The position numbers were made by a program, and so were the translations under genes. The notes beneath the pieces were generated by a model that had not been told where the DNA came from, did no database searches, and saw only the letters and a list, made by a program, of their open reading frames with translations. A stretch of DNA of 64,000 bases, from the IMG/VR virus record IMGVR_UViG_3300034073_005177, positions 1 through 64,000 of that record. One strand, 5' to 3'. Below, in pieces: positions 18,727 through 37,253 of the stretch. Source of the stretch: a virus. Numbering within the stretch: the first letter of the stretch is position 1; each line of letters begins with the position of its first letter.

Positions 18727-18758
18727 TATTAAACTATAATGCAAGATAGTCACTTAGT

Positions 18759-19715
18759 TCAAGAATCTACTTTCTTTGAAATAGCGCGACCGACTAATTT
18801 TAACCAATCCTTTTGAGGACGAACTTCTAAATTTTTATTCCACGCTGCAGACATGACTTTTGGATCGACGCCTAACGTTTTTGCAATTGAGATAAGGGCA
18901 TTAATGTCTTTACAAAAACAGCTTCCACCAAAACCGAATGCGGGTTCTCCAGTGTCGTCTGCTGGCATTGGACCTGGGACTTTCCAATGAGAGTTACCTA
19001 GACGTTTGTCTAATGTTGCATACTCGACTACCTTATCATAATCGATATTTGCGCCTTGACTGTCTAAGGCCTGACAAATTTGATAGAATTCATTTGCAAG
19101 AGATACCTTGACCGCAAGGTGTACATTGGTCACATATTTGACCATCTCTGCTGTCGTGCTAGATGTCTTAATGATTGGTACATTTGGAAACGCAGCTTCA
19201 AAGACTTGCTTCACTTTATTGATCCACGGACGAGGTCCACCAAGGATAATGCGGTTTTGATTTCGCATATCGTCCAGCGCATTTGCTTCAGTCAAAAATT
19301 CTGGATTGAATACTACGCGTAGACCTGTCTCTGAGAACTTTTTGTTCCACGCCTCTACAGAACCAGGCGGGACCGTAGATTTGACAACCGCGATTCTTTC
19401 TCCGGGAATAGCGGCTAATTCAGAGAGCGCGTCGTCGACGATTGAAAGATCAGCAGAACCATCATCATACATGGGCGTAGGAAGACACACAAAATAAACT
19501 TTAGAAAAGTTTGGTGTTCCTCCACCTTCATTATCTCCAATTAATTCTGCGATGGATCCTGGGTAACCGGCGACTGAATCTCCATGAGATGGTAGCGCAC
19601 CTTTGGCATACTTGCCTGCCTTGTCGTATGCATAGACTCCAAAACCTCTTTCGGCAAAAACAGTCGTTAGTGAACCGCCGACGAATCCTTGTCCAATTAC
19701 AGCAATAGATTTCAT
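18759..19715 (-). CDS. Short UDP-sugar/GDP-mannose dehydrogenase-like protein
   Basis: A 318-residue member of the UDP-glucose/GDP-mannose dehydrogenase family. It has an N-terminal NAD-binding turn, IAVIGQGFVGGSL, then a central domain with the active-site signature GFGGSCFCKDINAL, whose first Cys is the expected nucleophile. EVRPQKDWL is near the end. Family members usually have about 390-450 residues and a third, C-terminal, UDP-binding domain, which is absent here. It might use another sugar or act with a partner. I choose ATG 19715, 4 bases after the upstream stop; a TTG frame to 19727 exists. The product would feed uronic-acid-type sugars into the cluster. Confidence 0.85.
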   Translation of the reverse strand: MKSIAVIGQGFVGGSLTTVFAERGFGVYAYDKAGKYAKGALPSHGDSVAGYPGSIAELIGDNEGGGTPNFSKVYFVCLPTPMYDDGSADLSIVDDALSELAAIPGERIAVVKSTVPPGSVEAWNKKFSETGLRVVFNPEFLTEANALDDMRNQNRIILGGPRPWINKVKQVFEAAFPNVPIIKTSSTTAEMVKYVTNVHLAVKVSLANEFYQICQALDSQGANIDYDKVVEYATLDKRLGNSHWKVPGPMPADDTGEPAFGFGGSCFCKDINALISIAKTLGVDPKVMSAAWNKNLEVRPQKDWLKLVGRAISKKVDS

Positions 19716-19719
19716 AGTT

Positions 19720-20580
19720 TTATGCAAAATTATTAAATCCCCAATGTGAAGAGTTCAATTGATTAATTTTTTCTTGAGAATCTTCGGGATGTTTAAAGTT
19801 TTTTATTATTTTTAAAGATGAATCTTTTATTTTTTTATAATCTTTGTAACTTTGAATTATCTCGGTATCCGACATATGCTCGAATCTATTTTTTCTTTGT
19901 TGCGCAAAACTGTAGGCTTCTTCTGTTTTTTTCCAAAAGTCAATTAGTCTTTCTTTCGTAAAGAAAGTCGCATCATAATTTGTTGGTATGATATTTTCGT
20001 CTGAAACTACAAAAGTTTCATGAGGCGACGATATCTCTGCTCGACACCAACTTTTTATATCGCCCACTTTATATTCTATATTTTTTGATTTCAAGCTATC
20101 AATATTCAAGGCGTATATGTCTTCTGAACTTGTATTAACACCAACTCTATCGAAGGTTACAACGTTTGCTCTTCTAAAAATTAATTTGTCGACCTTTTTT
20201 TCAAAAAGACTTTTAATCTCACTTACTCTTTCTTTTCTAAAAACGTTGTCAGCGTCAAATTTAAGGAACCACCCGGTTTTACACGAATCGAGGGCACTTT
20301 GAACTATATTTCTTATTTCTGAATATGTTTGATTTTTTTGTAACTTCCAATTTTCGTCTATTACAAATTCGATATTGCAATATGACTCAACTTGTTTTTT
20401 TAATTTAGATATATTTTCGTAAGAAATTTCTTCAAACTGTCTAAATTCGGGCCGGTCTTCTTTTGCCGCAGCATAATTTATAATTATTTTATCAGCAAAA
20501 TGAGAAACAGACTTTAACGACTCGATGTATGGATACATCAATTTATCAGGTTCAGCTAAAACACAAAATGCGGTTATCAT
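19720..20580 (-). CDS. Glycosyltransferase-like protein, GT-A (GT2-type) fold
   Basis: A 286-residue protein starting MITAFCVLAEPDKLMYPYIES, with SALDSCKTGWFLKFDADNVF in the middle, a DxD-type metal/nucleotide-sugar motif after a helix. Further on it has ISSPHETFVV. These are GT-A features, although the overall match to GT2 is weak. The protein ends in a Lys- and Asn-rich helical tail. The gene overlaps the upstream PhyH-like gene by 4 bases and is followed by the dehydrogenase. Likely a cytoplasmic transferase of the glycan cluster. The donor is unknown. Confidence 0.65.
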   Translation of the reverse strand: MITAFCVLAEPDKLMYPYIESLKSVSHFADKIIINYAAAKEDRPEFRQFEEISYENISKLKKQVESYCNIEFVIDENWKLQKNQTYSEIRNIVQSALDSCKTGWFLKFDADNVFRKERVSEIKSLFEKKVDKLIFRRANVVTFDRVGVNTSSEDIYALNIDSLKSKNIEYKVGDIKSWCRAEISSPHETFVVSDENIIPTNYDATFFTKERLIDFWKKTEEAYSFAQQRKNRFEHMSDTEIIQSYKDYKKIKDSSLKIIKNFKHPEDSQEKINQLNSSHWGFNNFA

Positions 20581-21371
20581 TTTTTATTGAAAAAATTTTT
20601 AATTGTTTCTTGTGACAACGGATTCGATATTTCTCTTTCTATACTACGTTTATACGCACAAGGATAATTTCTGTCGATAAACGTTTTTTCAATAGCATTA
20701 TCAAATCGAGTCGAAGCAGAAAATCTAAATTTACTATTTTTAATATTTGTTTTCGTTCTATGCACAGTAAAAGTTGAAAAGATCAAGGCGTCACCCGGAC
20801 TACAGACGACATCAAGTATGTTTTTTTCCTCTTCTTGGGTTAACTTTATAATGCTTCCTTTTTTTTCAATAACGGATTCTCGAAGACCGTCTAAATGAGA
20901 TCGCGGCAATATCTGTATAGGATAGCTTAAATCATTAACTTCTGTGAAAGGAATCCAGACGACTAAAGAATCTAAGCTACCTTGGATCGAAGGCCAATCT
21001 TGGTGCGCTTTTATACCAGCGGCCTCTCCTTCGATTAAGAGATCTTCGCACGTTACATGAGTAACGGGCTGCGTAGGTTGAGTTGGCACTTTTACCCCTA
21101 ATCGTTTAACGAAGCTTAACAACTCTTCTTTTAAGAATAACGACTGTAGTCGAGCAGACTTCGAAAAAGTTCTTAAAATTTGAAGATATGTATTTGGGTC
21201 TTTAGCAAATACAGCTCTAAGAGTTAGCTCTAGGTCTATATATTTTTTATCAATTACTTCATTACAGATTTGTATAAGCTCTTGTTTACAGCTTTCTATA
21301 TCTTCATTTTTGAATACGTCTTTAACTATTATAAATCCATTTTCAAGATATGAGTCTGGAATTAAAGACAT
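20577..21371 (-). CDS. Phytanoyl-CoA dioxygenase-like 2OG-Fe(II) oxygenase
   Basis: A 264-residue non-heme iron oxygenase. Visible motifs, counted from ATG 21371, are HQD (His123, Asp125), the distal His204 in FTVHRTKT, and RFSASTRF with Arg216 or Arg222 for 2-oxoglutarate binding. PGDALIFST precedes the distal His, as in the PhyH family. It would hydroxylate or otherwise oxidise a substrate, here probably a sugar or lipid-like precursor. A GTG frame starting at 21401 would overlap the previous gene by 40 bases. I prefer the ATG, which overlaps by 10 bases. The neighbouring gene is a GH43-like propeller. Confidence 0.8.
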   Translation of the reverse strand: MSLIPDSYLENGFIIVKDVFKNEDIESCKQELIQICNEVIDKKYIDLELTLRAVFAKDPNTYLQILRTFSKSARLQSLFLKEELLSFVKRLGVKVPTQPTQPVTHVTCEDLLIEGEAAGIKAHQDWPSIQGSLDSLVVWIPFTEVNDLSYPIQILPRSHLDGLRESVIEKKGSIIKLTQEEEKNILDVVCSPGDALIFSTFTVHRTKTNIKNSKFRFSASTRFDNAIEKTFIDRNYPCAYKRSIEREISNPLSQETIKNFFNKK

Positions 21372-22294
21372 AGTTGCGGCGTCGGTTGTGTGTCTATCCA
21401 CTTTGCTAATCCAATTCCTGTTTTTCCAAATCCATTTCCATTATAAAACATGTAGAGATCTTTGTTATCTTTAATCACGCAAGGGTATGCCACCATTTCG
21501 CTATCCCAACCCGTCGTAGAAATGTCTAATTCAAAATTTGGGTTCGGTTGTCTTGTCCAGTTTATTCCATCAAGTGATGAAGCATATTTCACGCGATATG
21601 AATTACTTTTATTATTCCTGAAATCTACTTGATTTCTTACTGAAAACCACATATGATATGTACCGTTATTTCCCTTAACGACTGAAGCTTGCGAAATACC
21701 TCCTTCATCTTTTTCAAGTTGAATGCAAGTGATATTTGTTGGTTCCCAATCAACGCCATTTTTTGATATAGCGTATTTGATATCATATATGGGCTCAATT
21801 TTATTTTCTACTTCTATCCACCTTCTACAAGAAAGATACCATCCTTTAAAAAAACCTTCATCGAATAAAACAAAAATTGTGCCGATGTAACCAGGTTCTT
21901 TATAAGAAGTTGAAAAAATAGGGCCTTCAGAAAATTTTTGAAAAGTTTTACCGTTGTCTTTAGAGATCATTAATCCGAGATTGTTGTGGTATGGCACATC
22001 TTTTCTGATTGACCATCCAATGTAATAGAGAAAAATCGTAGATTGTTCTGGCTGTATCAGCGCTGTAGGCATTACACCCGCCCAATCGAACGTTCCTCTT
22101 TCTCCAAGTTTAACAAGAGGCGCTTCAAATTTAGAGATTATTCGTTGATCTTCTTTCGAAACTAGAAAAGAGCTAGGAACGCTTTTTCCTTCTACGCGAT
22201 TTGAATAAAATATTCTCCATCTGTCACCGATGTCTTGCACAACTGGTACTTGCGCGTGGTGAAAACTATAGATATTTTTAATTTTTTTCCACAT
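21362..22294 (-). CDS. Five-bladed beta-propeller glycosidase-like protein (GH43/GH130-like)
   Basis: A 310-residue protein built of repeated propeller blades: IYFLYYIGW, KNGKTFQKF-type SKDNG turns (residues about 105), GYIGTIFVLFDEG, YAISKNGVDWE, TYHMWFSVR, YASSLDGINWTRQ, and DLYMFYNGNGFGKTGIGLA. The SxDGxxW pattern is typical of GH32/43/68/130-type propellers found in sugar clusters. I cannot assign catalytic carboxylates with confidence, so hydrolytic activity is not certain. No signal peptide is visible. The gene follows a 24-codon mini-frame whose stop touches its ATG, and overlaps the oxygenase gene downstream. Confidence 0.7.
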   Translation of the reverse strand: MWKKIKNIYSFHHAQVPVVQDIGDRWRIFYSNRVEGKSVPSSFLVSKEDQRIISKFEAPLVKLGERGTFDWAGVMPTALIQPEQSTIFLYYIGWSIRKDVPYHNNLGLMISKDNGKTFQKFSEGPIFSTSYKEPGYIGTIFVLFDEGFFKGWYLSCRRWIEVENKIEPIYDIKYAISKNGVDWEPTNITCIQLEKDEGGISQASVVKGNNGTYHMWFSVRNQVDFRNNKSNSYRVKYASSLDGINWTRQPNPNFELDISTTGWDSEMVAYPCVIKDNKDLYMFYNGNGFGKTGIGLAKWIDTQPTPQLCL

Positions 22295-22981: not shown

Positions 22982-23656
22982 TTAATAAACCTCTATTGAA
23001 GACTTTTCTTGTTTCTTTGCAGGATTGCCCAGATAAAATCCAAATTTTTCTGTGTTTTTAGTTAACACAGACCCCATTGCGAGTAACGTGGATTCTTCTA
23101 ATATAATAGCATTTCTTAGAGTCGCGTTAACACCAATCCAACAATTGTTTTTTATATGGCAGTGTCCAGACATAACCACATGAGAAGTAAAAAAAACGTG
23201 ATCATCTATTTTTCCGTGATGACCAATATGATTACCACTCCAAAGAATGACATTGTCTCCAATGTCTGTAAATGGTTGTAAAGTATTATCTTCAAGTATG
23301 AAGCAATTTTCACCAATTCTGTTGTTAAAAACGCTAGCTTTACTGGAAATGTACGTCGCGTGCGTGTAACCTTTTCTTTTTCCTTGCAAGAAAATGTTTT
23401 CTCGAATGGTGTTCATTTTGTTCCCCGTCATCGGGGAAAACAATAAAAATTCGCTGGGTGGGTATTTTTTTTCCAAATTTTCAAATGGAACTACGGGGTA
23501 TTCTTTTGTAGACCCGCGGGGAATGAACAATTCAGACTTGATGTAATCTTGAGTTAGCGTAAAAGCTTCCACTTTTAGATCAGAATCTGATTCAAGATAA
23601 TAATGAGCTAGTTCAGCTGTGTCAGCTGTACCAAATATGACTACACGCTTTTGCAT
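22982..23656 (-). CDS. NeuD-like sugar acyltransferase, left-handed beta-helix (hexapeptide repeats)
   Basis: A 224-residue protein of the NeuD/PglD-like group. The N-terminal part KRVVIFGTADTAELA is a Rossmann-like segment, and the C-terminal part has isoleucine-rich hexapeptide turns: IGENCFILEDNTLQPFTDIGDNVILWSGNHIGHHGKID, then HCHIKNNCWIGVNATLRNAIILEESTLLAMGSVLTKN. The His pair in GHHGKI is where this family has its catalytic base. It probably N- or O-acylates an amino sugar with acyl-CoA. I prefer ATG 23656 over a TTG at 23668. The DegT aminotransferase two genes upstream fits such a pathway. Confidence 0.8.
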   Translation of the reverse strand: MQKRVVIFGTADTAELAHYYLESDSDLKVEAFTLTQDYIKSELFIPRGSTKEYPVVPFENLEKKYPPSEFLLFSPMTGNKMNTIRENIFLQGKRKGYTHATYISSKASVFNNRIGENCFILEDNTLQPFTDIGDNVILWSGNHIGHHGKIDDHVFFTSHVVMSGHCHIKNNCWIGVNATLRNAIILEESTLLAMGSVLTKNTEKFGFYLGNPAKKQEKSSIEVY

Positions 23657-23664
23657 AGCAATTA

Positions 23665-24348
23665 TCAAAATAAACTATAATTCGATATTTGTTCTATTAA
23701 GAGCTGTTTAGGATATGTAAATAACTGATGTAAGATTGAAAGATAAGGATTTTCTAATTCTAGATTTCCCATCTTAATAAACTTGAGTGTGATATCGTGC
23801 TTGTGAAAGTTTTCTTTTGAATATAACGTTTGACCGCCAGGGGCATTGATGTATGTAGTTCCGTCAAGTTTTTTGGTTATATCGATTAAGGAGTCTTCTG
23901 CTTTCAATCCGTTCGCAAAAGCATCAGACGTGTCAAGAATATTGGTTTCTATATTCAAGTAATTGCAAATACGCTTTATTATTTCAAGATTAAATTGAGA
24001 GATCGTTACTGGTCTTTCGTAGACTTCAGGTAGGACAATTTCCTGCATTACCGTATTATAGTTTTTAGATTTTGAATACAGAAACTTCAGCGTTTTTGTA
24101 AGACTGTTGGTGTAGCCATGCTCAAAATTTACTGTGGTTTTATTGCATGCTAGATTTTGTGTTCCCTTATTGACCTGCACGTTTATTGCTGTGTTATTTT
24201 TCAGCATATTTCTTGTCATATAGCTTCTTTTCATAAAGCTAACATGATCTAAGTTAACATAAACGTCGGCCGCGTGGATGAGTTGAAAATATCCAATATA
24301 CGGAAAAAAATAAGGTTGCATAATTGCGATAGATTTATTTTTTTTCAT
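23665..24348 (-). CDS. WbqC-like family protein
   Basis: A 227-residue protein like the WbqC family found in O-antigen clusters. The signature is IAIMQPYFFPYIGYFQLIHAADVYV near the start, then VNLDHVSFMKRSYMTRN, and later TYINAPGGQTLYSK followed by LSILHQLF. The family is associated with amino-sugar decoration, though its exact reaction was not settled in what I know. The start is placed at ATG 24348 (the frame could extend to GTG 24357). The gene overlaps the DegT gene by 14 bases, so the aminotransferase and WbqC-like protein probably act together. Confidence 0.8.
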   Translation of the reverse strand: MKKNKSIAIMQPYFFPYIGYFQLIHAADVYVNLDHVSFMKRSYMTRNMLKNNTAINVQVNKGTQNLACNKTTVNFEHGYTNSLTKTLKFLYSKSKNYNTVMQEIVLPEVYERPVTISQFNLEIIKRICNYLNIETNILDTSDAFANGLKAEDSLIDITKKLDGTTYINAPGGQTLYSKENFHKHDITLKFIKMGNLELENPYLSILHQLFTYPKQLLIEQISNYSLF

Positions 24349-25384
24349 CGAGGCCACGCTTTATCTCATAAGAAACCTTGCAAATCATTTCTATTTCATA
24401 ATCCGTTAATCCATCATTCAATGGAAGATTAATAATTCTAGAAAAAATATCTTTAGAATTTTTTAAAGGTGCCAGAGGTCTATAGTATTTGTTGGCTTCA
24501 ATTCCTAGGTTTCTATAACTAGAGAAATCAACTGGCTTATTGAACAACACTGGGACGTTTCCAAGAACGTATTCTACGCCATCATTATTGATATTGAATA
24601 CTTGTAAGTCTATATCTAAAAGATTTTTTATTAGAGCGTTTTGGATCTCTATATGCTTTCGTACGTCGTAGCTTTCTACTTGCGTATAGCAATAAGCAGC
24701 TGCGATTTCCGACATTTTAAAGTTTGAAGAAAGACCATGGTGTACTCTTTGAGATGTAAAGCCAAAGTTTGCAATGCTATTTAACGCTTCATAATCTTCT
24801 ACGTCAACAACAGCGAATCCTCCCTCACCGAACCCGAAATACTTTGTGTGATGTAGACTTCCAAAGCTTGCATTTCCATAAGCACAAATGTTTTTTCCAT
24901 TTAAGCTTGTCATTGGAGAACTAGCATTGTCGAATATGAGTATCTTGTTCTCTTTTTTGCAATAGTCTTCCCATTCTTCTATTGCATTACAGGTTCCAAA
25001 TAAATTGGTTATTATTACGCCGTCAGCTTTTTTTACTTTTGGATCCGATGAACTAATCGTATATGTTTGATTATCAATATCTGTTATTTTTGCTGAGAAG
25101 CCTCCAACGACCGGCGCGGGGAATGTAAACGCGGGTGTTATCCATTTTAGTTTTTTGTTATTTTTTCTTTCGAATAAATACATTAAAGTATGACAAGCAG
25201 CTGTTCCATTCGATAAACAAACTACTGCTTTATTAGTAGGTAGATTAAGTTTAATATGTAAAAGTTTTTCTAAGTCCTTTTTTACTGGACCATCATTCGT
25301 AAATTGATTTAACTCAACTGATTTCTTAAGAAGTTCTGATATTCTGCTTTCGCGAATCTTTTTCTTTTGTATGTAGTTAATCAT
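24335..25384 (-). CDS. DegT/DnrJ/EryC1/StrS-type sugar aminotransferase
   Basis: A 349-residue PLP-dependent enzyme. The motifs are SNGTAACHTL (residues 58-67, phosphate-binding turn), FDNASSPMTS with Asp152, and SLHHTKYFGFGEGGF in which Lys181 should form the Schiff base with PLP. It would turn a keto-sugar nucleotide, made by the RmlB-like or Gmd enzyme, into an amino sugar using glutamate or glutamine. It overlaps the WbqC-like gene downstream and the methyltransferase-like gene upstream by 8 bases. The SLHHTKYF form differs from the common SFxxxK spacing but keeps the Lys. Confidence 0.85.
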   Translation of the reverse strand: MINYIQKKKIRESRISELLKKSVELNQFTNDGPVKKDLEKLLHIKLNLPTNKAVVCLSNGTAACHTLMYLFERKNNKKLKWITPAFTFPAPVVGGFSAKITDIDNQTYTISSSDPKVKKADGVIITNLFGTCNAIEEWEDYCKKENKILIFDNASSPMTSLNGKNICAYGNASFGSLHHTKYFGFGEGGFAVVDVEDYEALNSIANFGFTSQRVHHGLSSNFKMSEIAAAYCYTQVESYDVRKHIEIQNALIKNLLDIDLQVFNINNDGVEYVLGNVPVLFNKPVDFSSYRNLGIEANKYYRPLAPLKNSKDIFSRIINLPLNDGLTDYEIEMICKVSYEIKRGLDEKK

Positions 25385-26041: not shown

Positions 26042-26794
26042 TCACAAAATTTCATCCTTTATTCTTCCTCGTCTACGAATCTCCCTAAGACTATCGTGGT
26101 CGTCATTTTCACCTGGAAGTTTTTTATAATGTGTAGACTTATATTCGATAGAATCTATATTGTCGATTGTTCTGTAGTAATAAGATGCTAATGATATTCT
26201 AAATCTATCTTCGGGACAACTTAGTGGATGCGGATGACCATGATTTGAATTCGTGTCTGTTCTAAAAATTACTGCGCGATTAAATGATGGCGTAATTTTT
26301 TTACACAACTTAGTCATGTCTTTATCCCATAATTCAAGATGACCGCCCCAAGATTCTTTCCAGTCATCATTCAAGTATAAAATTAAATTAATACTTCGAA
26401 GCATTCTAAGATCCCTATGAATATTAAAGTCTTCATGGACGTCTAATTTGCCATCTCGTTTGATTAAGTGTAAGCCGCCGCCAAGCAACGCATCATCAGC
26501 ATGCAATTTTAATCCTGAAAGATCAGACAACCAATTTACAAAATGATCAGAATTAATTTCTTTGAAAAACTTTGTAAAAGCGATATCGAGTTTCGTTAGA
26601 TCATTAAAAGCCAATTTTTTTTCAAGAGGATTATCATATGACCACCATTTTTGTGCTAGCGGGTCTGGGAAATTATTTTTTAATTCTTTAGCAAAACTTT
26701 CTTCTAAAAAATTGTCAAGAATGACGTGGTCAAAAGGTTCTTTTTTTTGAAATTCTTTTGACCAATCTTTTTTTTCTTTTAAACAATTTATCAC
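26042..26794 (-). CDS. Prolyl-4-hydroxylase-like 2OG-Fe(II) oxygenase
   Basis: A 250-residue oxygenase. Visible features are VHEDFNIH with His120-Glu-Asp122 (the HxD iron ligands), SINLILYLNDDW, then WGGHLELWD, a distal His near 185-187 in SNHGHPHP, and RFRISLASYY with Arg197/199 for 2-oxoglutarate. This is the P4H-like arrangement. The start is GTG 26794, supported by an AAGGAAA site about 8 bases upstream; no nearby in-frame ATG was seen. It is the second of three 2OG oxygenases in the cluster. The substrate could be a sugar or a protein side chain that carries the glycan. Confidence 0.8.
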   Translation of the reverse strand: MINCLKEKKDWSKEFQKKEPFDHVILDNFLEESFAKELKNNFPDPLAQKWWSYDNPLEKKLAFNDLTKLDIAFTKFFKEINSDHFVNWLSDLSGLKLHADDALLGGGLHLIKRDGKLDVHEDFNIHRDLRMLRSINLILYLNDDWKESWGGHLELWDKDMTKLCKKITPSFNRAVIFRTDTNSNHGHPHPLSCPEDRFRISLASYYYRTIDNIDSIEYKSTHYKKLPGENDDHDSLREIRRRGRIKDEIL

Positions 26795-28467: not shown

Positions 28468-29474
28468 TTAACTTTAATCACTTGTTGCTGATATGCGGAC
28501 ATTTTTATCATGTTGATACACATATAGTCAATGTAAGCATTTTGATATGAATATACATTTCCTTTCAAAGCTTCTTCAATCAAAGTTGCAATTGCTGTTT
28601 GCTGATCGTCAAAATTTAGATGGCTATATGGATTTCTCCATTCTATGCCTTTATCTTTTATTGATATTGAGACAGTCATGTTTTCTTTTCTATCAATAGA
28701 AACTTCACAAACGTTTATTTTCTTTGTTGCTTTATCGACATATCTGACATCGACAAACTCATAATCGTTGCCCATTTCTTTCATGCGTCCAGTAACGATT
28801 GCACCATCCGTTGAATATGCTCTAATAAACTGGATTGGTATTGAAAGCAGGCTCTTACAATTGTAGGCAAAGCTGTACTGCAATAAACTACCATCTGACA
28901 TTTCTACTTGTCCAAGGGTCCATTCGTGCGGCGTAGAATTAATTTTTGTAGATGAATCTACAATACCTTCGTTGAAATAAGATTTAACGGATCCTTTTCC
29001 AACTACAGGCAATGGGTAATTTGTGTACGTCCTTAACTGCGCGATTGCATGATAATCAAAAGAACGGCCGTCGTTGAAAGTCAAGTAAGGTCGCGAAATT
29101 ATTCCTGATTTGTAAATTTCTTTTTTAAACTGTTCTAGAGGTAGTAGTGGCCACTGTTCCAAAACTCCAACTTTTGGTAAAGAAAGAAGTTTTTGATTTT
29201 CGGCCGGAGTTTCTACCAAAACAGAGCAATTGATTTTTAGTTTTTCTAGAATATCAGGCTGAGCCGCGGGTGGAATAAAGCACAAGACGACATCTGGGTT
29301 TATCTGTTCAAGCTCTGAAAAATCTTTTATTAAGCTGATACCTTCTTTTTTACAGAAATTTCCCGCTTTTTCTAGAGTTCGATTCCAAAGGAATATCTCG
29401 TGTTTAAGTTCTTTTAGTATTGGAAAATAAACGTTAGTAAATCTTTTTCCACAGCCGAGTACTGCTATTTTCAT
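28464..29474 (-). CDS. Gfo/Idh/MocA-type oxidoreductase
   Basis: A 336-residue protein. The N-terminal Rossmann segment is KIAVLGCGKRFTNVYFPIL with the family's G-x-G-x-x-x/xxxP spacing, then VLCFIPPAAQPDIL and CSVLVETPAE. In most family members that last segment is an EKP motif, here ETP, so the catalytic Lys may be missing. A LEQWPLLPLEQFKK segment follows. It probably oxidises or reduces a sugar carbon in the pathway. It overlaps the 2OG oxygenase gene by 4 bases upstream and the GT4 by 4 downstream. Confidence 0.75.
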   Translation of the reverse strand: MKIAVLGCGKRFTNVYFPILKELKHEIFLWNRTLEKAGNFCKKEGISLIKDFSELEQINPDVVLCFIPPAAQPDILEKLKINCSVLVETPAENQKLLSLPKVGVLEQWPLLPLEQFKKEIYKSGIISRPYLTFNDGRSFDYHAIAQLRTYTNYPLPVVGKGSVKSYFNEGIVDSSTKINSTPHEWTLGQVEMSDGSLLQYSFAYNCKSLLSIPIQFIRAYSTDGAIVTGRMKEMGNDYEFVDVRYVDKATKKINVCEVSIDRKENMTVSISIKDKGIEWRNPYSHLNFDDQQTAIATLIEEALKGNVYSYQNAYIDYMCINMIKMSAYQQQVIKVK

Positions 29475-30169
29475 GTTTCCTCTTCATACATTTTTGAAGT
29501 TTTATGATGAAGCTCTTCTGCATTTGCATCTCTTAATTGCTCAGGGGCGATAAAAGAATAAATCAATCGAATTGAAGAAGTGCCAGGAAGGTCGGGCGCG
29601 ACAGCATGTAAAAGAGAAGTATCAAATAACAATGCCTGTTCATTGTTAGTTGAAATGATTGCTTTGGGCAATTTTGAAACTAATTTAAGATCTTCGACTT
29701 GCTGATCTATCATTATTCTATGAGATCCTGGCGCGACATAAAGACGTTGTTCTATCTGATTATTGAAGCTTGGGTAATAAATGATTTTATATCCTGGCGG
29801 AGACATTCCTGATTTTCTTTCTAGATCATAATATGAATCTCTATGCCAATTCATATAACTGATCGTAGAACTTGCCACGCGCACTTGTGCATGATATAAA
29901 GTAAGATCTCTGAGCGTCCTGCTTCTAATAAAAGATTTTATTTGATTAATTTTTAAAGCTTTGATAAACTTTTCAGAATAATCAACGGCACTTGGGCGTA
30001 GGTCTATTGTATTAGAATATTTTTGCTGAAGAGAAAAACCTTTTTTTAAATTGCCATCTAAAATTTCTTTTAATATTTCATCTAAACCGCAAGGGTCAAA
30101 ACGGAATATTTCAAATCCATTTTTATAGAAACTTTCATATTCTGTCAATTTATTATCGACTTTTTTCAT
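29471..30169 (-). CDS. Phytanoyl-CoA dioxygenase-like 2OG-Fe(II) oxygenase
   Basis: A 232-residue protein with His109 and Asp111 in NWHRDSYYDL, a distal His188 in SLLHAVAPD and Arg201 in IRLIYSF, the iron and 2-oxoglutarate pattern. RLYVAPGSH precedes, as in PhyH-like enzymes. It is the third 2OG oxygenase here and is different in sequence from the other two, so they were probably not made by a recent duplication. It overlaps the GT4 upstream and the oxidoreductase downstream by 4 bases each. Confidence 0.8.
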   Translation of the reverse strand: MKKVDNKLTEYESFYKNGFEIFRFDPCGLDEILKEILDGNLKKGFSLQQKYSNTIDLRPSAVDYSEKFIKALKINQIKSFIRSRTLRDLTLYHAQVRVASSTISYMNWHRDSYYDLERKSGMSPPGYKIIYYPSFNNQIEQRLYVAPGSHRIMIDQQVEDLKLVSKLPKAIISTNNEQALLFDTSLLHAVAPDLPGTSSIRLIYSFIAPEQLRDANAEELHHKTSKMYEEET

Positions 30170-31068
30170 AATGATTCTATCAGCTTTCTATACAACGCCT
30201 GGCCTGATGGCAATTTCAAATTTTCCACGTTGGGTATGATCGGGGTTGCTACTGTAACATCATCGTTAATTGCCTCGTTCGGCAAAACAACGCTAGCAAT
30301 GCCTACGTTTCGAGATATGACTGGTATGTTTAATAGACCACACTCAATTAAAGCTTGGGGACCACCTTCATATCTCGCAGTAACTGGATAGAGATCTAAA
30401 GTTTGATACAACTCGTTTATAACAGATTGAGAAGGTTTTTCAACGTACACGAATGGGATATTAGCTCGCGTTAATCGTGAAATAATATACTGCCTTCGCC
30501 ATCCAGCAAGAACGACAAAAATCTTTTTATTTGTTTGCCATAACTTTTCAATAGAGTCAGCAAGTAAATCTGGACCTTTTTCTAATTTAGGGGTTCTTAG
30601 ATCCGATCCTTCTGTGTCTCTTTGAAAGGAACCAATAACATAGCCTTCTTTTGGTATGTTATATTTTTTTCTCAATTCAAATTTGCCTACAGTCGACTTC
30701 CAGATTTTTTGGTTGGCCCAATATGGTATAATAGATATGGGTTTTTTTGTTATGCTTTTTATAAACTTTTCTGTATGCTGATTTGGTACGTGGTAAACAT
30801 CGGTGATACTATCTCTTTCTTGAAATTCTAAAAATTTTTGTTGATTAAACTTTTCGTTTACAACGTGATGTACTGTAGTGATTACTTTTTTTTGAGACAA
30901 AAGCTTTCTATCTATATTTCTGTAACACCAACTTGCCAACAACCAAATAACGTCGGCATCTTCAGGGTTTTTTACACTAATATCTGAATTGTTTTCATAC
31001 CATTCGTCTACAAGACGGTCTACGATCCAGTCCTCTGCTGGACGTAATATGAAAACTTTATTGTTCAT
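30166..31068 (-). CDS. Glycosyltransferase, GT4-like (GT-B fold)
   Basis: A 300-residue GT-B-type protein. It starts MNNKVFILRPAEDWIVDRL, has KKVITTVHHVV, then a donor-binding half with GYVIGSFQRDTEG, FVVLAGWRRQ and TARYEGGPQALIECGLLNIPVISR, a family 4 motif with two Glu seven apart. The gene overlaps the gmd gene by 4 bases and the oxygenase gene by 4 bases. The donor is unknown; a GDP-sugar derived from the Gmd product is a plausible guess given the order. Confidence 0.8.
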   Translation of the reverse strand: MNNKVFILRPAEDWIVDRLVDEWYENNSDISVKNPEDADVIWLLASWCYRNIDRKLLSQKKVITTVHHVVNEKFNQQKFLEFQERDSITDVYHVPNQHTEKFIKSITKKPISIIPYWANQKIWKSTVGKFELRKKYNIPKEGYVIGSFQRDTEGSDLRTPKLEKGPDLLADSIEKLWQTNKKIFVVLAGWRRQYIISRLTRANIPFVYVEKPSQSVINELYQTLDLYPVTARYEGGPQALIECGLLNIPVISRNVGIASVVLPNEAINDDVTVATPIIPNVENLKLPSGQALYRKLIESL

Positions 31069-32066
31069 AATCCGAGCACAACCTTTTCTTTTTGAGCTAA
31101 TTCGATATCATATTTGACCATACGCTCAACAAGATTTTCAAAATTAACTTTTGGAACCCATCCCAACACTGATTTCGCCTTGTTTGAGTCTGCGATCAGA
31201 GTATCAACCTCAGATGGTCGCATAAATTTTTGATCAATTTTTACATACTTTTCTTTATCTAACCCAGCAGACTCAAAAGCTTTGTCGATAAATTCTTGAA
31301 CAGAATGTTGCGTGCCCGTACCGATAACATAATCATCTGGTTTATCTTGCTGAAGCATTAACCACATCGCTTCGATATATTCAGGTGCATATCCCCAGTC
31401 TCTAAGAGCGGTGGTATTTCCCATTCTTAATTCATCCTGTAAACCTGCCTTAATTCTTCCGACGGCTCTTGTAATCTTACGAGTTACGAAGTTTTCTCCG
31501 CGACGTTCAGATTCATGGTTAAACAGTATTCCTGAACAGGCAAACATCCCATAAGATTCGCGATAGTTTTGTGTGATATAATGCGCGTACACTTTCGCGC
31601 AACCATAAGGGCTCCGTGGATAAAATGGAGTGTTTTCATTTTGTGGCGTTTCTCTTACTCTACCAAACATTTCGCTGGATGATGCTTGATAAAATTTGCA
31701 ATCAAGCTTTGATCTTTTAATCGCGTCCAAGAGATTGAGCGCGCCGAGCGCTGTAACTTCAGTTGTATTAACAGGCTGTTCAAAAGATATACCAACGTGA
31801 CTTTGCGCGGCAAGGTTGTAGACTTCATCGGGTTGAATCGTTTCTAACATTGCGCGCATACCTGAAGCATCCATCAAATCTCCATGGTGGACTTCAAGCT
31901 TTTTTGATAGCATTGCATTCTTTAGATTTCCCCAGCGGTCAGGAGTGAATTGCGTTGATTGTCTGATAAGACCATGAACTTCATAACCCTTTTCAATTAA
32001 TAAATCGACAAGATAACTGCCGTCTTGTCCTGTAACGCCTGTTATAAAAGCTCGTTTTGACATCAT
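31065..32066 (-). CDS. gmd: GDP-mannose 4,6-dehydratase
   Basis: A 333-residue short-chain dehydrogenase. It has AFITGVTGQDGSYL for NADP binding, then DEVYNLAAQSHVGISFEQP, YQASSSEMFG, PRSPYGCAKVYAHY with the Tyr-x3-Lys pair, SGILFNHESERRGENFVTRKI and LGNTTALRDWGYAPEYIEAMW-type text, all typical for Gmd. It converts GDP-mannose to GDP-4-keto-6-deoxymannose, the precursor of fucose, rhamnose or perosamine. The AGAGGTC site precedes two adjacent ATGs at 32066 and 32063. No fucose synthetase (WcaG) is evident nearby, so the final sugar is unknown. The DegT enzyme could make perosamine-like amino sugar from it. Confidence 0.93.
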   Translation of the reverse strand: MMSKRAFITGVTGQDGSYLVDLLIEKGYEVHGLIRQSTQFTPDRWGNLKNAMLSKKLEVHHGDLMDASGMRAMLETIQPDEVYNLAAQSHVGISFEQPVNTTEVTALGALNLLDAIKRSKLDCKFYQASSSEMFGRVRETPQNENTPFYPRSPYGCAKVYAHYITQNYRESYGMFACSGILFNHESERRGENFVTRKITRAVGRIKAGLQDELRMGNTTALRDWGYAPEYIEAMWLMLQQDKPDDYVIGTGTQHSVQEFIDKAFESAGLDKEKYVKIDQKFMRPSEVDTLIADSNKAKSVLGWVPKVNFENLVERMVKYDIELAQKEKVVLGL

Positions 32067-32419
32067 GACCTCTGTTTAATTTCAAAGATAAAAGGTAAAG
32101 CAAAAGGTGTATTAGAAAAAAAACTAGCAAGAAGAGCCAACTCTTTAGTTTCAATATTCTTTGCGCTGGCTCTTTGCGAAAAGATATTGGGATCTAATTC
32201 TTGATTTTCGTTGATTGTTACAGCATCATAATATAGCTGACAAATCATGTTCATTCCTTCATTACTAATTTGTATTGAAGATTCTTGAAAAACGTCCACA
32301 AAGGCTTCAAAAATATCTTGATAAATCGCGGTGCATGTTGCTGTATTCAACTTTTCATTTTTGTATTTTGATAATTTTGTAGTTAGTAGTTTACTGATAG
32401 ATTCATATACATTCTTCAT
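32063..32419 (-). CDS. Unknown small helical protein
   Basis: A 118-residue protein from ATG 32419, chosen because an AGAGG site lies 5 bases upstream; a longer frame to 32452 would overlap the radical SAM gene. It is helical, with Asn/Lys/Ser-rich content and two Cys in positions unlike a metal site. I do not recognise it. It sits between the gmd and radical SAM genes and overlaps gmd by 4 bases, so it probably belongs to the same transcript. Any role in sugar metabolism is inferred from position alone. Confidence 0.6.
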   Translation of the reverse strand: MKNVYESISKLLTTKLSKYKNEKLNTATCTAIYQDIFEAFVDVFQESSIQISNEGMNMICQLYYDAVTINENQELDPNIFSQRASAKNIETKELALLASFFSNTPFALPFIFEIKQRS

Positions 32420-32432
32420 ATTAGCCTCTGGA

Positions 32433-33965
32433 TTATTTTTGGTATATTTCACCTAGATTCATATCGACAACCATGTTTTTTTTGTATTCTACGAAATCTT
32501 TTCTGTTCATCGTTGACCAGGCTTCATCACGCAAGTTTTCTAACTCTGCTGGTTCTATTAATGTGTTCTTCATATTCGCTTTTTGCCAGTGCATTTTGTC
32601 GGGATTAAAATTTTGATCAAGATGATTATTGGCAATCGCGTAATCGAACAGTTTCGTTCCTGGTAGCGGCATCACTAAGAAAAAGTTGGCCGCGTCTAAT
32701 CCTTCTTCCATTCTTTCTTTTGCGTATTGTATTGTATCGATAACTTCATTTTTTGTTTCATCAGGATACCCCAACATAAAGTTACCTGCAACTCTAAATC
32801 CATATTCTTTGCAAGCTTTGATAAGGGTCGTAATGTCTGCTCTTTGAATATCCCATTTATTACTTGCGTATTTTTCAATAATTCTTGGAGAAGATGATTC
32901 AAATGGCAATACTAATTCAGTAAAACCCGCATTTTTTAAAGAATCTAATACTTCAAAATCAGGTTTCATTTTTTTATTAAGACCTTCTTTTTTTAATAAA
33001 TGAATAATATTCACACCATTAACGTCAAGAATCTGAAGATCATTCCCTTGAATTTGTTTTAGCATATCGATTGCTCGACGCTTTTTACCGAAAATTGAAT
33101 CATCTTCAATAAAGACTTGCTTTACTCCAATCTTTTTTAACATTTCTAATTCTTGTGAAACTCTATTAATAGATTTAACTCTAAATTTACCAATATTACC
33201 GGCCGTGGATTCTTCGGTTTCACTAGAAATGTGGCAATAAGAACAAGAAAAAGGACATCCCATCGATGTAACCATCGATGCATATTTCAGCACAGTACCT
33301 TTTTTAAATTGCCCACCATGAGGACGACCAATCTTCCAGTATCTTTCATTCGGAAGCAAATGCCATGCCGGTGGAGCTAACTCGTCTAGATCTTCTATAA
33401 CGTGGCCATTTTTAGTATAAACGATTTTATTATCTAATTTTGTCATCAAAAAATTAACTTTATTACAAATGTCTTCTTTAGAAGATTTTTTTTGTAATTG
33501 CAAAATTAGATTTAAAAAAGTTATTTCTGCTTCTGAAGTGCAGATGTAATCAAATCCTGCATCAAAAAAACTTTGATATCGATATCGAGCATTTACGCCT
33601 CCGCTAACTAATATTTTTTCTGGGAAATATTTTTTTATTAATTTAGCAACGTGGAGTACCATCGCTTCTTGGTGCGTAAAAATCGAAGTTATCCCGATTA
33701 TGTCATGTTTGGATACGACCTCTAATATTCTCTGATCAGAAACTCCTGTTCGTATTAACCCAGTTGGAAGTGTTACATTGTTCTCAAAGAATACTTTTTG
33801 CAAATCATCTTGCTCATTACCTACGCAAGCATCATAAATAGTGACTTCGATATTATGCTTCAGTAAAGTGCCAGCAAGATTAGGATAAGCCAAAGATCCA
33901 TTTGGTTTACACATCATACTTGGCCAGGTTTGCTCTGGCGGGTATAGCAATAAAATGCTTTTCAT
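32433..33965 (-). CDS. B12-binding-type radical SAM enzyme
   Basis: A 510-residue enzyme. Residues 1-150 have the Rossmann-like layout of a cobalamin-binding domain (ILLLYPPEQTWPS, then NLAGTLLKHNIEVTIYD, then IIGITSIFTH, then ILVSGGVNAR). The classic DxHxxG motif is absent, as in several relatives. The radical SAM core begins with MGCPFSCSYCH, with Cys237, Cys241 and Cys244 holding the 4Fe-4S cluster. The late FMLGYPDET and LVMPLPGTKLFD segments are typical of this B12/radical SAM class. The family catalyses methylation at unactivated carbon or ring rearrangements. In this setting a C-methylated or rearranged sugar is a reasonable guess only. Confidence 0.85.
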   Translation of the reverse strand: MKSILLLYPPEQTWPSMMCKPNGSLAYPNLAGTLLKHNIEVTIYDACVGNEQDDLQKVFFENNVTLPTGLIRTGVSDQRILEVVSKHDIIGITSIFTHQEAMVLHVAKLIKKYFPEKILVSGGVNARYRYQSFFDAGFDYICTSEAEITFLNLILQLQKKSSKEDICNKVNFLMTKLDNKIVYTKNGHVIEDLDELAPPAWHLLPNERYWKIGRPHGGQFKKGTVLKYASMVTSMGCPFSCSYCHISSETEESTAGNIGKFRVKSINRVSQELEMLKKIGVKQVFIEDDSIFGKKRRAIDMLKQIQGNDLQILDVNGVNIIHLLKKEGLNKKMKPDFEVLDSLKNAGFTELVLPFESSSPRIIEKYASNKWDIQRADITTLIKACKEYGFRVAGNFMLGYPDETKNEVIDTIQYAKERMEEGLDAANFFLVMPLPGTKLFDYAIANNHLDQNFNPDKMHWQKANMKNTLIEPAELENLRDEAWSTMNRKDFVEYKKNMVVDMNLGEIYQK

Positions 33966-33972
33966 ATTTTGA

Positions 33973-34740
33973 TCAATCTATAATCGAATTACAAATATTA
34001 AACCATTCATCGGTGCTTAATTTTCCAGAAACAGAATATTGTCCGCTTAATTTAGAAGTGCCTCTTCCTTGATGCATGTATATTACTTTATTAGTTTCTG
34101 TGGCAAGGCACCTGTCTACTCCACAGTCTTTACCCAAAGACTTGAATGGCTCATTTATTAATTCTACTAAATTTTTATCATTATATGTGTTACTAAAAAC
34201 AAAAATTTTATTGTTGTTTTTTCTACAAAATTCAGTTAGCTTATCTGTTGTGTCAAATTTCGGTAAATCGGGTAGCATCGATACTTTCTTTAATATGTCA
34301 GTCTTTATCAAAAATCCAGAACAATGTACTGCTTGAATTCTGTTTGGATGACTATCATAACAAACACCAATTAGTTCATAACCTTCATCAACTTTTTTTT
34401 TGAATTCTTGAAAAAATGAATTACTCGTTATAAAACAATCTGAGTGACAGACGAAAGTCCAATCATGTTTAATATATTGCTTACCAAATTCATAAGCTAA
34501 ACCATGACCAATTGAACTTTTTCCACTATTGATTGTGTACTTTTCTCCGTCAGCGTGGTTGATATAGACAATGTCATTTAACCCTTCTGTAACTTTCTCC
34601 TTAAAAGAGGAATTACTGCTATTTTCTACTATAACATATTGCAGATTATAGTCAGAGGGTTTAAAATGCTCAAAACTTTTTATTAAATTTTTGATTAATA
34701 AATCATCTTTATATGTCACGCAAAGAACGGATATCTTCAT
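33973..34740 (-). CDS. Glycosyltransferase, GT2-like (GT-A fold)
   Basis: A 255-residue GT-A enzyme. It starts MKISVLCVTYKDDLLIKNLIKSF, then YVIVENSSNSSFKEKV, and has KHDWTFVCHSDCFIT, which stands at the DxD position although the acidic pair is reduced to HSD. AVHCSGFLI follows, as does a late CGVDRCLATE. A family 2-type transferase is likely. No membrane segment is visible, so it is cytoplasmic. It is separated by 7 bases from the radical SAM gene downstream and by 43 bases from the RmlB-like gene upstream. Confidence 0.7.
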   Translation of the reverse strand: MKISVLCVTYKDDLLIKNLIKSFEHFKPSDYNLQYVIVENSSNSSFKEKVTEGLNDIVYINHADGEKYTINSGKSSIGHGLAYEFGKQYIKHDWTFVCHSDCFITSNSFFQEFKKKVDEGYELIGVCYDSHPNRIQAVHCSGFLIKTDILKKVSMLPDLPKFDTTDKLTEFCRKNNNKIFVFSNTYNDKNLVELINEPFKSLGKDCGVDRCLATETNKVIYMHQGRGTSKLSGQYSVSGKLSTDEWFNICNSIID

Positions 34741-34783: not shown

Positions 34784-35713
34784 TTAAAAATTGTTTTTTA
34801 TAATTTCTCGTAATCCTGTATCAAATTTTGTATAGCTATTGCCCAATATGTCATTCAACTTTTTAGATGAAATCCAGTATTTTTTATCATGGCCAGGACG
34901 ATCATCAGAAGTTTTTACAACTTCATTTAATAAGACATTAGATCCATTAATTTCGTTGTACAAAGAAATAACACGCTGAGCAGCGTCTATGTTTGTTAAG
35001 GTTATACCAGAGCTGAGATTATAAATTGAATTCCAGGTTGTTTTATGACAAGTTAAAAGATTCCTAACTCTCTTTGCCGTGTCTTTCACATACGTCCATT
35101 CTCTTTCTTGGTCTCCAGCGCCGTATAAAGGAAATTCTTTTTTGTTTATAATGCAATCTAAAAGTTTTGGTATGAATTTTTCTTTATGTTGACCAGGCCC
35201 GTAATTGTTAGATGGTCGAACAATTAAATACTCAATTCCATAAGTGTTACGATAAGCTTGAATCATCATATCAGCCGCTGCTTTAGTTGCAGAGTATGGA
35301 TTCATAGGATTTAATCTATCGTCTTCAGTGAATGGTTTATCAAAAGCTGGGCCGTAAACTTCGTCTGTTGAAATATGGCACAGCTTTGTTTTTGTTCTTC
35401 TACAAACATCAAGTACTGACGCTGTACCTTCCACGTTAGTATGAATAAATTCTTTGCAATCAGATATAGAATTGTCTACATGGGTTTCAGCCGCAAAATG
35501 TACTATGCAATCTGGTTTATAGTCTTTTACAATATTAAAAAGACTATCGGAACTGCATATGTCTAACTTAACAAACGATGAGACAGTAACATTTTCTTTT
35601 TTGCCAGCGTACGTTAACTTATCGATGTTAAGAACTTCATCTCCTGAATCAACAAAGTGTTGAACTGCAGTTCCACCTATAAATCCTGCTCCACCCGTTA
35701 TGATAACCTTCAT
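34784..35713 (-). CDS. rmlB: dTDP-glucose 4,6-dehydratase-like
   Basis: A 309-residue SDR enzyme. KVIITGGAGFIGGTAVQHF, INIDKLTYAG-type LNIDKLTYAGKKENV, HFAAETHVDNSISD, HISTDEVYGPAFDKPF, NPYSATKAAADMM with Tyr-x3-Lys, VRPSNNYGPGQHKEKFIPK and GAGDQEREWTYVKD are all hallmark segments. It would convert dTDP-glucose to dTDP-4-keto-6-deoxyglucose. The adjacent RmlA and RmlD-like genes form the expected pathway. RmlC was not found. It overlaps the RmlD-like gene by 4 bases. Confidence 0.9.
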   Translation of the reverse strand: MKVIITGGAGFIGGTAVQHFVDSGDEVLNIDKLTYAGKKENVTVSSFVKLDICSSDSLFNIVKDYKPDCIVHFAAETHVDNSISDCKEFIHTNVEGTASVLDVCRRTKTKLCHISTDEVYGPAFDKPFTEDDRLNPMNPYSATKAAADMMIQAYRNTYGIEYLIVRPSNNYGPGQHKEKFIPKLLDCIINKKEFPLYGAGDQEREWTYVKDTAKRVRNLLTCHKTTWNSIYNLSSGITLTNIDAAQRVISLYNEINGSNVLLNEVVKTSDDRPGHDKKYWISSKKLNDILGNSYTKFDTGLREIIKNNF

Positions 35714-36537
35714 ACATTTTTACCGTAATTTTTTAAGCACCAGTCTAGTGCATTTATTGCGCTTCTAGGATTATATCCTGTTGCCATCAACTTGCGTACA
35801 TCTAACAGCGTATTGACTCGCTTAACTTTCAAGGTCTTTATGTACTCTATGTATGAAATTCTTCCAAGCCGAAGATCTGGTGCGATAGTCTCCTTTAGCC
35901 TCTCTGCGATTCTAAATGGAGATAACCATCCCGTATTTGCAAGATTATAGATTCCATAGTGCTTACCTGCGATTAGGTGTTCGATCATATTCTTCATATC
36001 TTCGATGCAGGTAACTGAATTTTTAGACCCAATAAAGTCTCCGCCTCCAAGTGTAATAAACTTGGTTAACATATTCGTTGGATGTGGAGTTGCTGAGATT
36101 AATTGTCGAGGACGGACAATTGTAATTTTCTCGTATCCTGATGACATTAAAAGCTTATCAGCTTCTGCTTTGGTTTCAGCATACCAAGCTGCAGGAGTTG
36201 GAATATCTTCCTCTGTATAAATCTTTTCTGTTTCCATTCCATCAAAAATGCATCCACTGCTGATATGAACAAGATGGTGACCAAACTTGCTGCACGTTCT
36301 TCCAACGTTGATCGCACCTGTGACATTGACAATACGCGCAGTGTCTTTGTAAGTTTCACACCATTCCAAGTTAATTTTTGCGGCTGTATTGACAACGACT
36401 GTCCCAGCAGGAAATTTAGAAAGCTGTTTTTCGACAGAGGCTGGATTTGATATCTCGATAAGCGCATGAGGGAGAATTATATCTTCGCTATTCTTGATGA
36501 TGTTTGCGACTTTTCCAGATCCGATGATTACTTTCAT
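35710..36537 (-). CDS. RmlD-like dTDP-4-keto-sugar reductase
   Basis: A 275-residue SDR-family reductase, with KVIIGSGKVANII at the start and TVVVNTAAKINLEWCE, HHLVHISSGCIFDG, and AAWYAETKAEADKLL (Tyr-x3-Lys). RmlD proteins share the VVNTAAxxxxxxxE and SSGxxFDG segments. It should reduce the 4-keto group of a dTDP-deoxysugar. I prefer ATG 36537, because a GGAG site is 7 bases upstream, over ATG 36549. Its ATGA overlap with rmlA supports one operon. The true product may be a sugar other than rhamnose because rmlC is not seen. Confidence 0.8.
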   Translation of the reverse strand: MKVIIGSGKVANIIKNSEDIILPHALIEISNPASVEKQLSKFPAGTVVVNTAAKINLEWCETYKDTARIVNVTGAINVGRTCSKFGHHLVHISSGCIFDGMETEKIYTEEDIPTPAAWYAETKAEADKLLMSSGYEKITIVRPRQLISATPHPTNMLTKFITLGGGDFIGSKNSVTCIEDMKNMIEHLIAGKHYGIYNLANTGWLSPFRIAERLKETIAPDLRLGRISYIEYIKTLKVKRVNTLLDVRKLMATGYNPRSAINALDWCLKNYGKNV

Positions 36538-37253
36538 GAAGCGCTCCATATCATTTCGTTTGCTTTTCTATATGACTCGTGAGTACCAGCATCTACCCAC
36601 CCGCAAGTTACTTCTACAACGCGACCTGTCTTGTATTTAACAAACCAGGAATTAACATCACTAATTTCATATTCACCGCGCTGTGATGGGTTTAGCATTT
36701 CTACAACATCGAATGCATCAGAAGAATAACAATACAGTCCAACAATAGCTTTATTCGTTTTTGGATCTTTTGGTTTTTCTATGATGTCAACGACTTTGTC
36801 ACCATCATAAACAGGAACTCCAAAACGTTGGGGATCTGGTACTTCTTTTGAAAAAAGACGATAGTCATCGGCGCTGTTTTGAAATTCTTTTATTGACTTT
36901 GAAATCTCTTCATGATCGCTAAAGATATTATCACCAAGGATTACAGAAAACTTTTCATTGGCACAAAAGTCTTTGCAAAGCTTAAGGGCCGCGGCGATTC
37001 CATTTGCGGAGTCTTGAACTTTGTAAGTCATTGAACAGTTCTTTTCTGCTCCTGAACCTAACAAAGAAATTACTTGACCCATGTGCTCAGGTCCTGTTAC
37101 AAGCATGATGTCAAAAATTCCTGAAGAAACAAAAAGATCGATCATCCTATAAACCATCGGTGTTTGTCCGACTGGCAATAAACACTTATTTGTAACTTTC
37201 GTTAATGGACTTAAGCGACTGCCTGTTCCGCCAGCTAAAATAATGCCTTTCAT
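36534..37253 (-). CDS. rmlA: Glucose-1-phosphate thymidylyltransferase (RmlA-type)
   Basis: A 239-residue nucleotidyltransferase. KGIILAGGTGSRLSPLT is the pyrophosphorylase signature, followed by NKCLLPVGQTPMVYRMI, FSVILGDNIFSD, EKPKDPKTNKAIVGLYCY and a C-terminal GWVDAGTHESYRKA. It makes dTDP-glucose from glucose-1-phosphate and dTTP, feeding the RmlB-like enzyme. The length is that of a short RmlA without extra regulatory tail. The GT4 gene upstream and the RmlD-like gene downstream overlap it by 4 bases each. Confidence 0.92.
   Translation of the reverse strand: MKGIILAGGTGSRLSPLTKVTNKCLLPVGQTPMVYRMIDLFVSSGIFDIMLVTGPEHMGQVISLLGSGAEKNCSMTYKVQDSANGIAAALKLCKDFCANEKFSVILGDNIFSDHEEISKSIKEFQNSADDYRLFSKEVPDPQRFGVPVYDGDKVVDIIEKPKDPKTNKAIVGLYCYSSDAFDVVEMLNPSQRGEYEISDVNSWFVKYKTGRVVEVTCGWVDAGTHESYRKANEMIWSAS

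Follow-up and report, generated by a model that had tools for sequence, protein, structure and literature searches.

A B12-type radical SAM gene in the glycan island of a myovirus-like contig: an uncharacterised addition to a known enzyme class that probably alters a surface sugar

What does a radical SAM enzyme do among the sugar genes of a phage, and does it use cobalamin to do it? The question is raised by an open reading frame (ORF) in the window, which here means the whole 64,000-base stretch of viral DNA under analysis, itself part of a 65,223-base IMG/VR virus record (IMGVR_UViG_3300034073_005177). The record carries genes for a baseplate wedge protein, a phage helicase and PhoH, and the original prediction that the DNA belongs to a phage is thereby upheld. 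The best named relatives of the baseplate wedge protein are those of Flavobacterium immuto phages and a Microcystis phage, at 29-30%. The contig is myovirus-like, and the radical SAM gene lies inside its glycan island (Table 1).

According to the ORF list, the gene opens with an ATG start. Its product matches the B12-binding domain of Pfam (PF02310) over residues 75-153, with 35.2 bits against a cut-off of 32.1, and the Radical_SAM domain (PF04055) over residues 232-414, with 57.7 bits against 29.5. Both domains were matched in each of the 14 family members scanned, the former at E<=0.001. The cluster motif reads C237-PFS-C241-SY-C244, and this CX3CX2C arrangement is kept in 20/20 sequences (19 viral and one bacterial) together with the loop G[IL]TSIF, KPxG and GGxNAR, while DxHxxG is absent from the same 20. 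The combination first read from the DNA, namely CxxxCxxC and an N-terminal cobalamin-type fold with DxHxxG lacking, is therefore borne out. Values of dN/dS were sought for seven hand-chosen pairs and lie between 0.033 and 0.099 in the six closer ones, the seventh pair being saturated. Since relatives occur in 18 further viral contigs and on one plasmid, and since dN/dS is low, the ORF did not arise by chance. It is confirmed as a genuine gene for a cobalamin-type radical SAM protein without DxHxxG.

Beyond the window, the family comprises 18 IMG/VR contigs with full-length or near-full-length copies at 40-61% identity, several of them near-identical. A protein query of IMG/VR returned four contigs at 57-60%. 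Scanning for the invariant peptide CKPNGSLAYP returned 16 contigs, 16/16 of which were confirmed by tblastn, and the pattern DVNGVN..HL recovered the same 16. The pattern CPFxCxYCHI gave 22 stretches, and one of the six newly met contigs held a full-length relative (L035, 40%). An alignment scan added L063 (47%), and the last such scan found the same 18 contigs and one remote protein, L081, at 21%. At least one family contig is Mu-like: in L035 the gene comes after head genes that were identified by eye as Mu-like, in company with a glycosyltransferase and a methyltransferase gene. A single close bacterial member was found, in the plasmid collection, where plasmid AZO_p6 of Azospirillum lipoferum 4B encodes a protein, AZOLI_RS29460, that is 55% identical over 97% of the query. 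Matches were also obtained in 76 other plasmid records, and the 14 of these among the matches listed have 21-28% identity. No relative was found by tblastn at E 1e-5 in the 50,697 phage records of INPHARED, and two pattern scans of the genome-contig collection gave 14 and 61 stretches with no relative among them. Such scans respond only to exact short peptides, and the close bacterial member was seen only in plasmids; the empty genome scans are therefore no evidence that the family is missing from bacteria. By the sequences gathered, this is a new, narrow and conserved subfamily within a known enzyme class, uncharacterised and, in the collections searched, mostly viral.

The tree and the second fold alignment were built with 14 of the 19 viral sequences, the near-identical L004, L017, L020, L026 and L028 having been dropped. 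In the tree of 24 rows, the family forms one clade (100/100) that is separate from HpnJ, BchE and other bacterial proteins (100/100), with the outgroup rows on long branches. L035 is the outermost member (85/96), and the Azospirillum protein is nested within the family next to L063 (92/84). Forks inside the clade are partly weak, with 37-48% bootstrap near the window protein, and the tree does not resolve the direction of transfer.

A predicted structure of the window protein was obtained from 14 sequences, its own and viral ones, with a pLDDT of 82.4 and a pTM of 0.85; it replaced a first prediction from 5 sequences (pLDDT 57.6). Whole-chain matches were found by VIA-align, starting at residue 1, to AprD4 (Z 26.2, 3.3 A, 410 residues), MgmA (Z 25.5, 2.7 A, 372 residues), CysS (Z 25.1, 3.4 A, 419 residues), OxsB (Z 23.6, 3.6 A, 426 residues), TsrM (Z 22.8, 3.3 A, 426 residues) and TokK (Z 20.7, 3.3 A, 416 residues). 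MiaB and RimO come next at Z about 18-19, and enzymes with the radical SAM part only fall below 14. The first three lie within about one Z unit and are not separated by the fold ranking; Foldseek ranked TsrM first. With the class-1 enzymes OxsB, TsrM, TokK and CysS, the window protein shares the whole-chain fold (Z 20.7-25.1), CX3CX2C, an N-terminal Rossmann domain and the lack of a His-on motif, but identity to them is 14-17% and cobalamin in the window family is predicted only. The family is further set off from these enzymes by otherwise invariant stretches of its own, CKPNGSLAYP, RPHGG, DVNGVN..H and KYAS.KW, which vary in L035 and L063. When the model was compared with predicted viral proteins, the best four matches bearing a name were B12/radical SAM proteins of uncultured Caudovirales, 13-16% identical; the occurrence of this class in phages is thus nothing new in itself.

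The window protein reached no NCBIfam equivalog. The best score, 120.5 bits against a cut-off of 575, was for the Sden_1168 P-methyltransferase (NF038361), from which the window family differs in its sugar-gene context. HpnJ (TIGR03471), which is concerned with the hopanoid cyclitol ether, came second with 101.1 bits against 577.6 and BchE (TIGR02026) third with 80.2 against 481.35; similarity to both extends over most of the chain, and the layout of B12-binding and radical SAM domains is the same, but the scores stay far under the cut-offs and the window family forms its own clade. TIGR04295 (B12_rSAM_oligo) gave 20.4 bits against 400 and the MiaB/RimO methylthiotransferases (TIGR00089) 20.3 against 251. 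Placement in a tRNA or lipid clade, the outcome named beforehand as telling against a sugar enzyme, is thus not what the TIGR00089 and HpnJ scores indicate.

Turning to the cofactor, the fold is no proof of cobalamin, because AprD4, which is not known to use B12, fits as well. Use of cobalamin by the window protein is nonetheless likely, because the Pfam B12-binding domain recurs in every member scanned, because a profile of the N-terminal domain matches TokK best (E 5e-4, with unrelated IMP dehydrogenases close behind) and leaves AprD4 unmatched up to E 10, and because the cluster motif is CX3CX2C throughout the family versus CX3CX3C in a printed alignment of AprD4. The His-on ligand motif is DxHxxG, and its absence from all 20 sequences led to the rejection of His-on cobalamin binding. 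If the sequences are aligned by eye on the G of that motif, the invariant Lys20 takes the expected place of the His. In an ungapped reading, which uses sequence only, the lower-face residue toward cobalt would be Ile95 by comparison with TsrM and Thr97 or His98 by comparison with TokK, and the readings disagree. Class-1 cobalamin-dependent radical SAM enzymes are described as 'not His-on' (PMC13331322). No Rfam family reached the gathering threshold anywhere in the window, so that no cobalamin riboswitch was matched there. The host would have to supply the cofactor.

The surroundings of the gene in the window bear on the substrate. The small ORF that follows it has no Pfam or PHROG match and no homologue among the clustered loci. 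Of the three 2OG oxygenases in the original prediction, two hold by Pfam; the third is read by eye from its HxD...H...R residues and has neither a Pfam match nor a PDB relative at E 1 beyond single chance-level rows. The further suggestion of unusual chemistry rather than simple deoxysugars was overstated, for a bona fide GDP-mannose 4,6-dehydratase and RmlA/B/D-like genes are also present.

Table 1. Features of the radical SAM gene and of the glycan island around it in the window
Feature	Position	Strand	Basis or remark
B12-binding-domain radical SAM protein	32433..33965	-	510 aa; ORF, Pfam, predicted structure, family motifs
Pfam B12-binding match	33507..33743	-	residues 75-153
CX3CX2C, [4Fe-4S] cluster motif, CPFSCSYC	33234..33257	-	residues 237-244; position computed from ORF
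129-aa orphan ORF	32063..32452	-	shares 20 bases with the end of the radical SAM gene; directly downstream
GDP-mannose 4,6-dehydratase	31065..32066	-	TIGR01472, 457.6 bits, cut-off 415; 4-base overlap with the 129-aa ORF
GT2-like glycosyltransferase, weak	33973..34740	-	20.4 bits against cut-off 23.3; homologue in L001; upstream of the radical SAM gene
dTDP-glucose 4,6-dehydratase-like SDR, RmlB-like	34784..35713	-	TIGR01181, 302.3 bits, under cut-off 365.1
RmlD-like reductase	35710..36549	-	PF04321, 81.9 bits
Sugar-1-phosphate nucleotidyltransferase, RmlA-like	36534..37253	-	PF00483, 160.9 bits
Putative 2OG-Fe(II) oxygenase	29471..30169	-	HxD...H...R read by eye, also in the L001 homologue
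2OG-Fe(II) oxygenase	26042..26794	-	Pfam PF13640, 2OG-FeII_Oxy_3
PhyH-type 2OG oxygenase	20577..21401	-	Pfam PhyH; weak match to 'sporadic carbohydrate cluster 2OG-Fe(II) oxygenase'
NeuD-type acyltransferase, amino-sugar gene of the island	22982-23668	-	profile matches
WbqC, amino-sugar gene of the island	23665-24357	-	profile matches
DegT aminotransferase, amino-sugar gene of the island	24335-25384	-	profile matches

Two other genes of the island deserve mention. Positions 18759-19727 encode a 322-residue UDP-glucose/GDP-mannose dehydrogenase in which Pfam matched only the N-terminal and central domains and did not find the C-terminal domain usual for such enzymes; the homologue in L001 has 284 residues. 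A gene for a PDDEXK_1 nuclease, with homologues in L045 and L046, lies at 17908-18753.

Across the family, searches for GT2, SDR and 2,3-dehydratase genes covered 20 records, one of which is that of the non-member L081, and neighbouring genes were clustered for 19 loci (18 viral and that of Azospirillum, with L063 left out). A GT2 match is found in 19/19 family contigs (18 over the cut-off), and no viral copy of the gene is more than about 3.6 kb from one; an epimerase-type SDR is found in 17 of the 19. The contigs without this SDR are those of L035 and L063, which branch deepest among the viral members, so that a deoxysugar made by the phage is not required in every case. About 1.7-1.9 kb from the gene, a rare NDP-hexose 2,3-dehydratase occurs in 7/19 contigs versus 0/14 control genomes. 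The next gene downstream encodes a 2OG-oxygenase-like protein in 10 of the 19 clustered loci. Its HxD...H...R residues are invariant in the six proteins aligned, and the one tested weakly matched 'sporadic carbohydrate cluster 2OG-Fe(II) oxygenase' (37.5 bits, cut-off 150); the cluster-2 proteins have no PDB relative at E 1 beyond single chance-level rows. A substrate common to all islands was sought and not found, the genes for GDP-mannose dehydratase, NDP-hexose 2,3-dehydratase and NeuB-like proteins being in different contigs. Since the sugar genes vary in this way, with GDP-mannose dehydratase in the window and 2,3-dehydratase elsewhere, no single substrate is implied.

Some bacterial relatives also keep company with sugar genes. 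The Azospirillum copy sits in a polysaccharide cluster with rfbC, SDR, Gfo/Idh, neuB, neuC and acylneuraminate cytidylyltransferase genes. Two of the distant plasmid-borne relatives inspected have sugar-gene neighbours, that of Roseibium lying between phytanoyl-CoA dioxygenases near a DegT aminotransferase and that of Eleftheria with an epimerase and glycosyltransferases; HpnJ and BchE stand in pathways of their own. Because the family is regularly accompanied by glycosyltransferases and, in the majority of contigs, by nucleotide-sugar SDRs, a sugar substrate is very likely. In an account of pelagimyophages, radical SAM cassettes are mentioned in the host-recognition region beside LPS-type glycosyltransferases, and modification of the host O-chain is proposed for these islands (PMC7029224); the likeness to the island in the window is one of description.

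The favoured reading, which is tentative and falls just short of an even chance, places the product of the window gene among the class-1 cobalamin-dependent radical SAM enzymes (OxsB/TsrM/TokK fold). The enzyme would tailor a sugar in a surface glycan whose synthesis the phage directs, and radical C-methylation would be the likeliest reaction. Considered separately, methyl transfer is evenly poised, and a change in the coat is somewhat favoured. In such a mechanism, a [4Fe-4S] cluster on C237, C241 and C244 would split SAM into a 5'-deoxyadenosyl radical, which would abstract hydrogen from a sugar carbon that is not activated, in either an NDP-sugar or an intermediate of the glycan. The methyl group would come from methylcobalamin, bound base-off in the N-terminal Rossmann domain with no histidine ligand and regenerated with a second SAM. 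The neighbouring epimerase-type SDRs, 2OG oxygenases and glycosyltransferases could then build and attach the sugar, giving an altered host or virion coat. C-methylation and rearrangement are the common chemistry of the class and either may apply here, the evidence not fixing the reaction. Pathways with a 2,3-dehydratase C-methylate beside a ketone by a non-radical route, which counts against radical C-methylation in this family. Within the class, methylation is the reaction met most often (PMC11659888), and two cobalamin radical SAM enzymes, the gentamicin C-methylases GenK and GenD1, carry out C-methylation on sugars (PMC5461906); they are likened to the window protein by the proposed chemistry alone, that is, cobalamin radical C-methylation of a sugar carbon.

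A cobalamin-free alternative, considered unlikely, is that the protein is a radical SAM diol dehydratase or deoxygenase of the AprD4 type, in which the N-terminal domain would be a relic, the radical would dehydrate a 1,2-diol of the sugar, and the product would be reduced by an SDR encoded nearby. Of the solved folds that act on sugars, the nearest is AprD4, a radical SAM 1,2-diol dehydratase of paromamine; it heads the VIA-align ranking in a tie with MgmA and is the top PDB match of a broad profile (E 1.1e-44), over the radical SAM part only. The many SDRs nearby would suit such a pathway. AprD4 and the reductase AprD3 together deoxygenate paromamine (PMC5461906). The window protein, however, scores 37.4 bits against the 500 required by the AprD4 model NF033070, its N-terminal domain has no sequence match in AprD4 and leads to TokK instead, and the cysteine spacing of AprD4 differs from that of all 20 family sequences. 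A second alternative, held to be improbable to the same degree, retains cobalamin and replaces methylation with a radical rearrangement, ring contraction or ring formation on a sugar, of the OxsB, HpnJ or BchE type, yielding a branched or carbocyclic unit. OxsB is among the whole-chain matches, and HpnJ, which turns a glucosamine head group into a cyclitol ether (PMC12583986), is second to BchE's third in NCBIfam, yet both of these scores are far below the cut-offs and the class mostly methylates (PMC11659888). Least probable is that the enzyme acts on a protein of virion or host, or on some other target that is not a sugar, and is located in glycan islands merely because these collect cargo genes, for although MgmA, which modifies protein glutamine, and TsrM, which modifies tryptophan, rank high among the fold matches and a second radical SAM gene adjoins the L063 copy, the GT2 match close to each viral copy and the polysaccharide cluster around the Azospirillum copy speak against it.

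Returning to the cobalamin-dependent sugar enzyme, the family is an uncharacterised addition to a known enzyme class and probably modifies a surface sugar in an unusual way. A broader picture, considered doubtful, is that a virus-spread cobalamin radical family adds a carbon branch to a coat sugar, or rearranges it, during infection; the resulting glycan would lie beyond the ordinary nucleotide-sugar chemistry of host and virus and might exclude competing phages, with the Azospirillum copy as a bacterial branch of a mainly viral family. If the cobalamin-dependent reading is right, phages themselves would encode the means to modify surface sugars by B12-dependent radical chemistry, and infection would be tied to the vitamin B12 supply of the host. 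Such sugar tailoring has so far been reported mainly from antibiotic pathways. Given how compact and conserved the family is, and how largely viral in the collections searched, one purified member would inform on the rest.

Several further observations concern the contigs of the family and their relatives. In L037-L041, L044 and L047 (e.g. L039:12356-13093), a phage NDP-hexose 2,3-dehydratase stands beside an RmlC-like epimerase, apparently as a 2-deoxysugar route. Two Mu-like contigs carry different B12/radical SAM genes (L081:7671-9287 and L035:9023-10519) in a like position, behind head genes and among glycosyltransferases. Plasmid AZO_p6 holds a second, distantly related B12/radical SAM gene adjoining sugar genes (NC_016588.1:22217-23335; L008), and in L063 a second radical SAM gene (4910-6004) lies immediately upstream of the B12-type one, between glycosyltransferases. 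Finally, a NodU-like carbamoyltransferase, named by eye, is encoded in 7 of the 19 clustered loci, among them L002:15403-17034, L003:13403-15028 and L039:767-2410.
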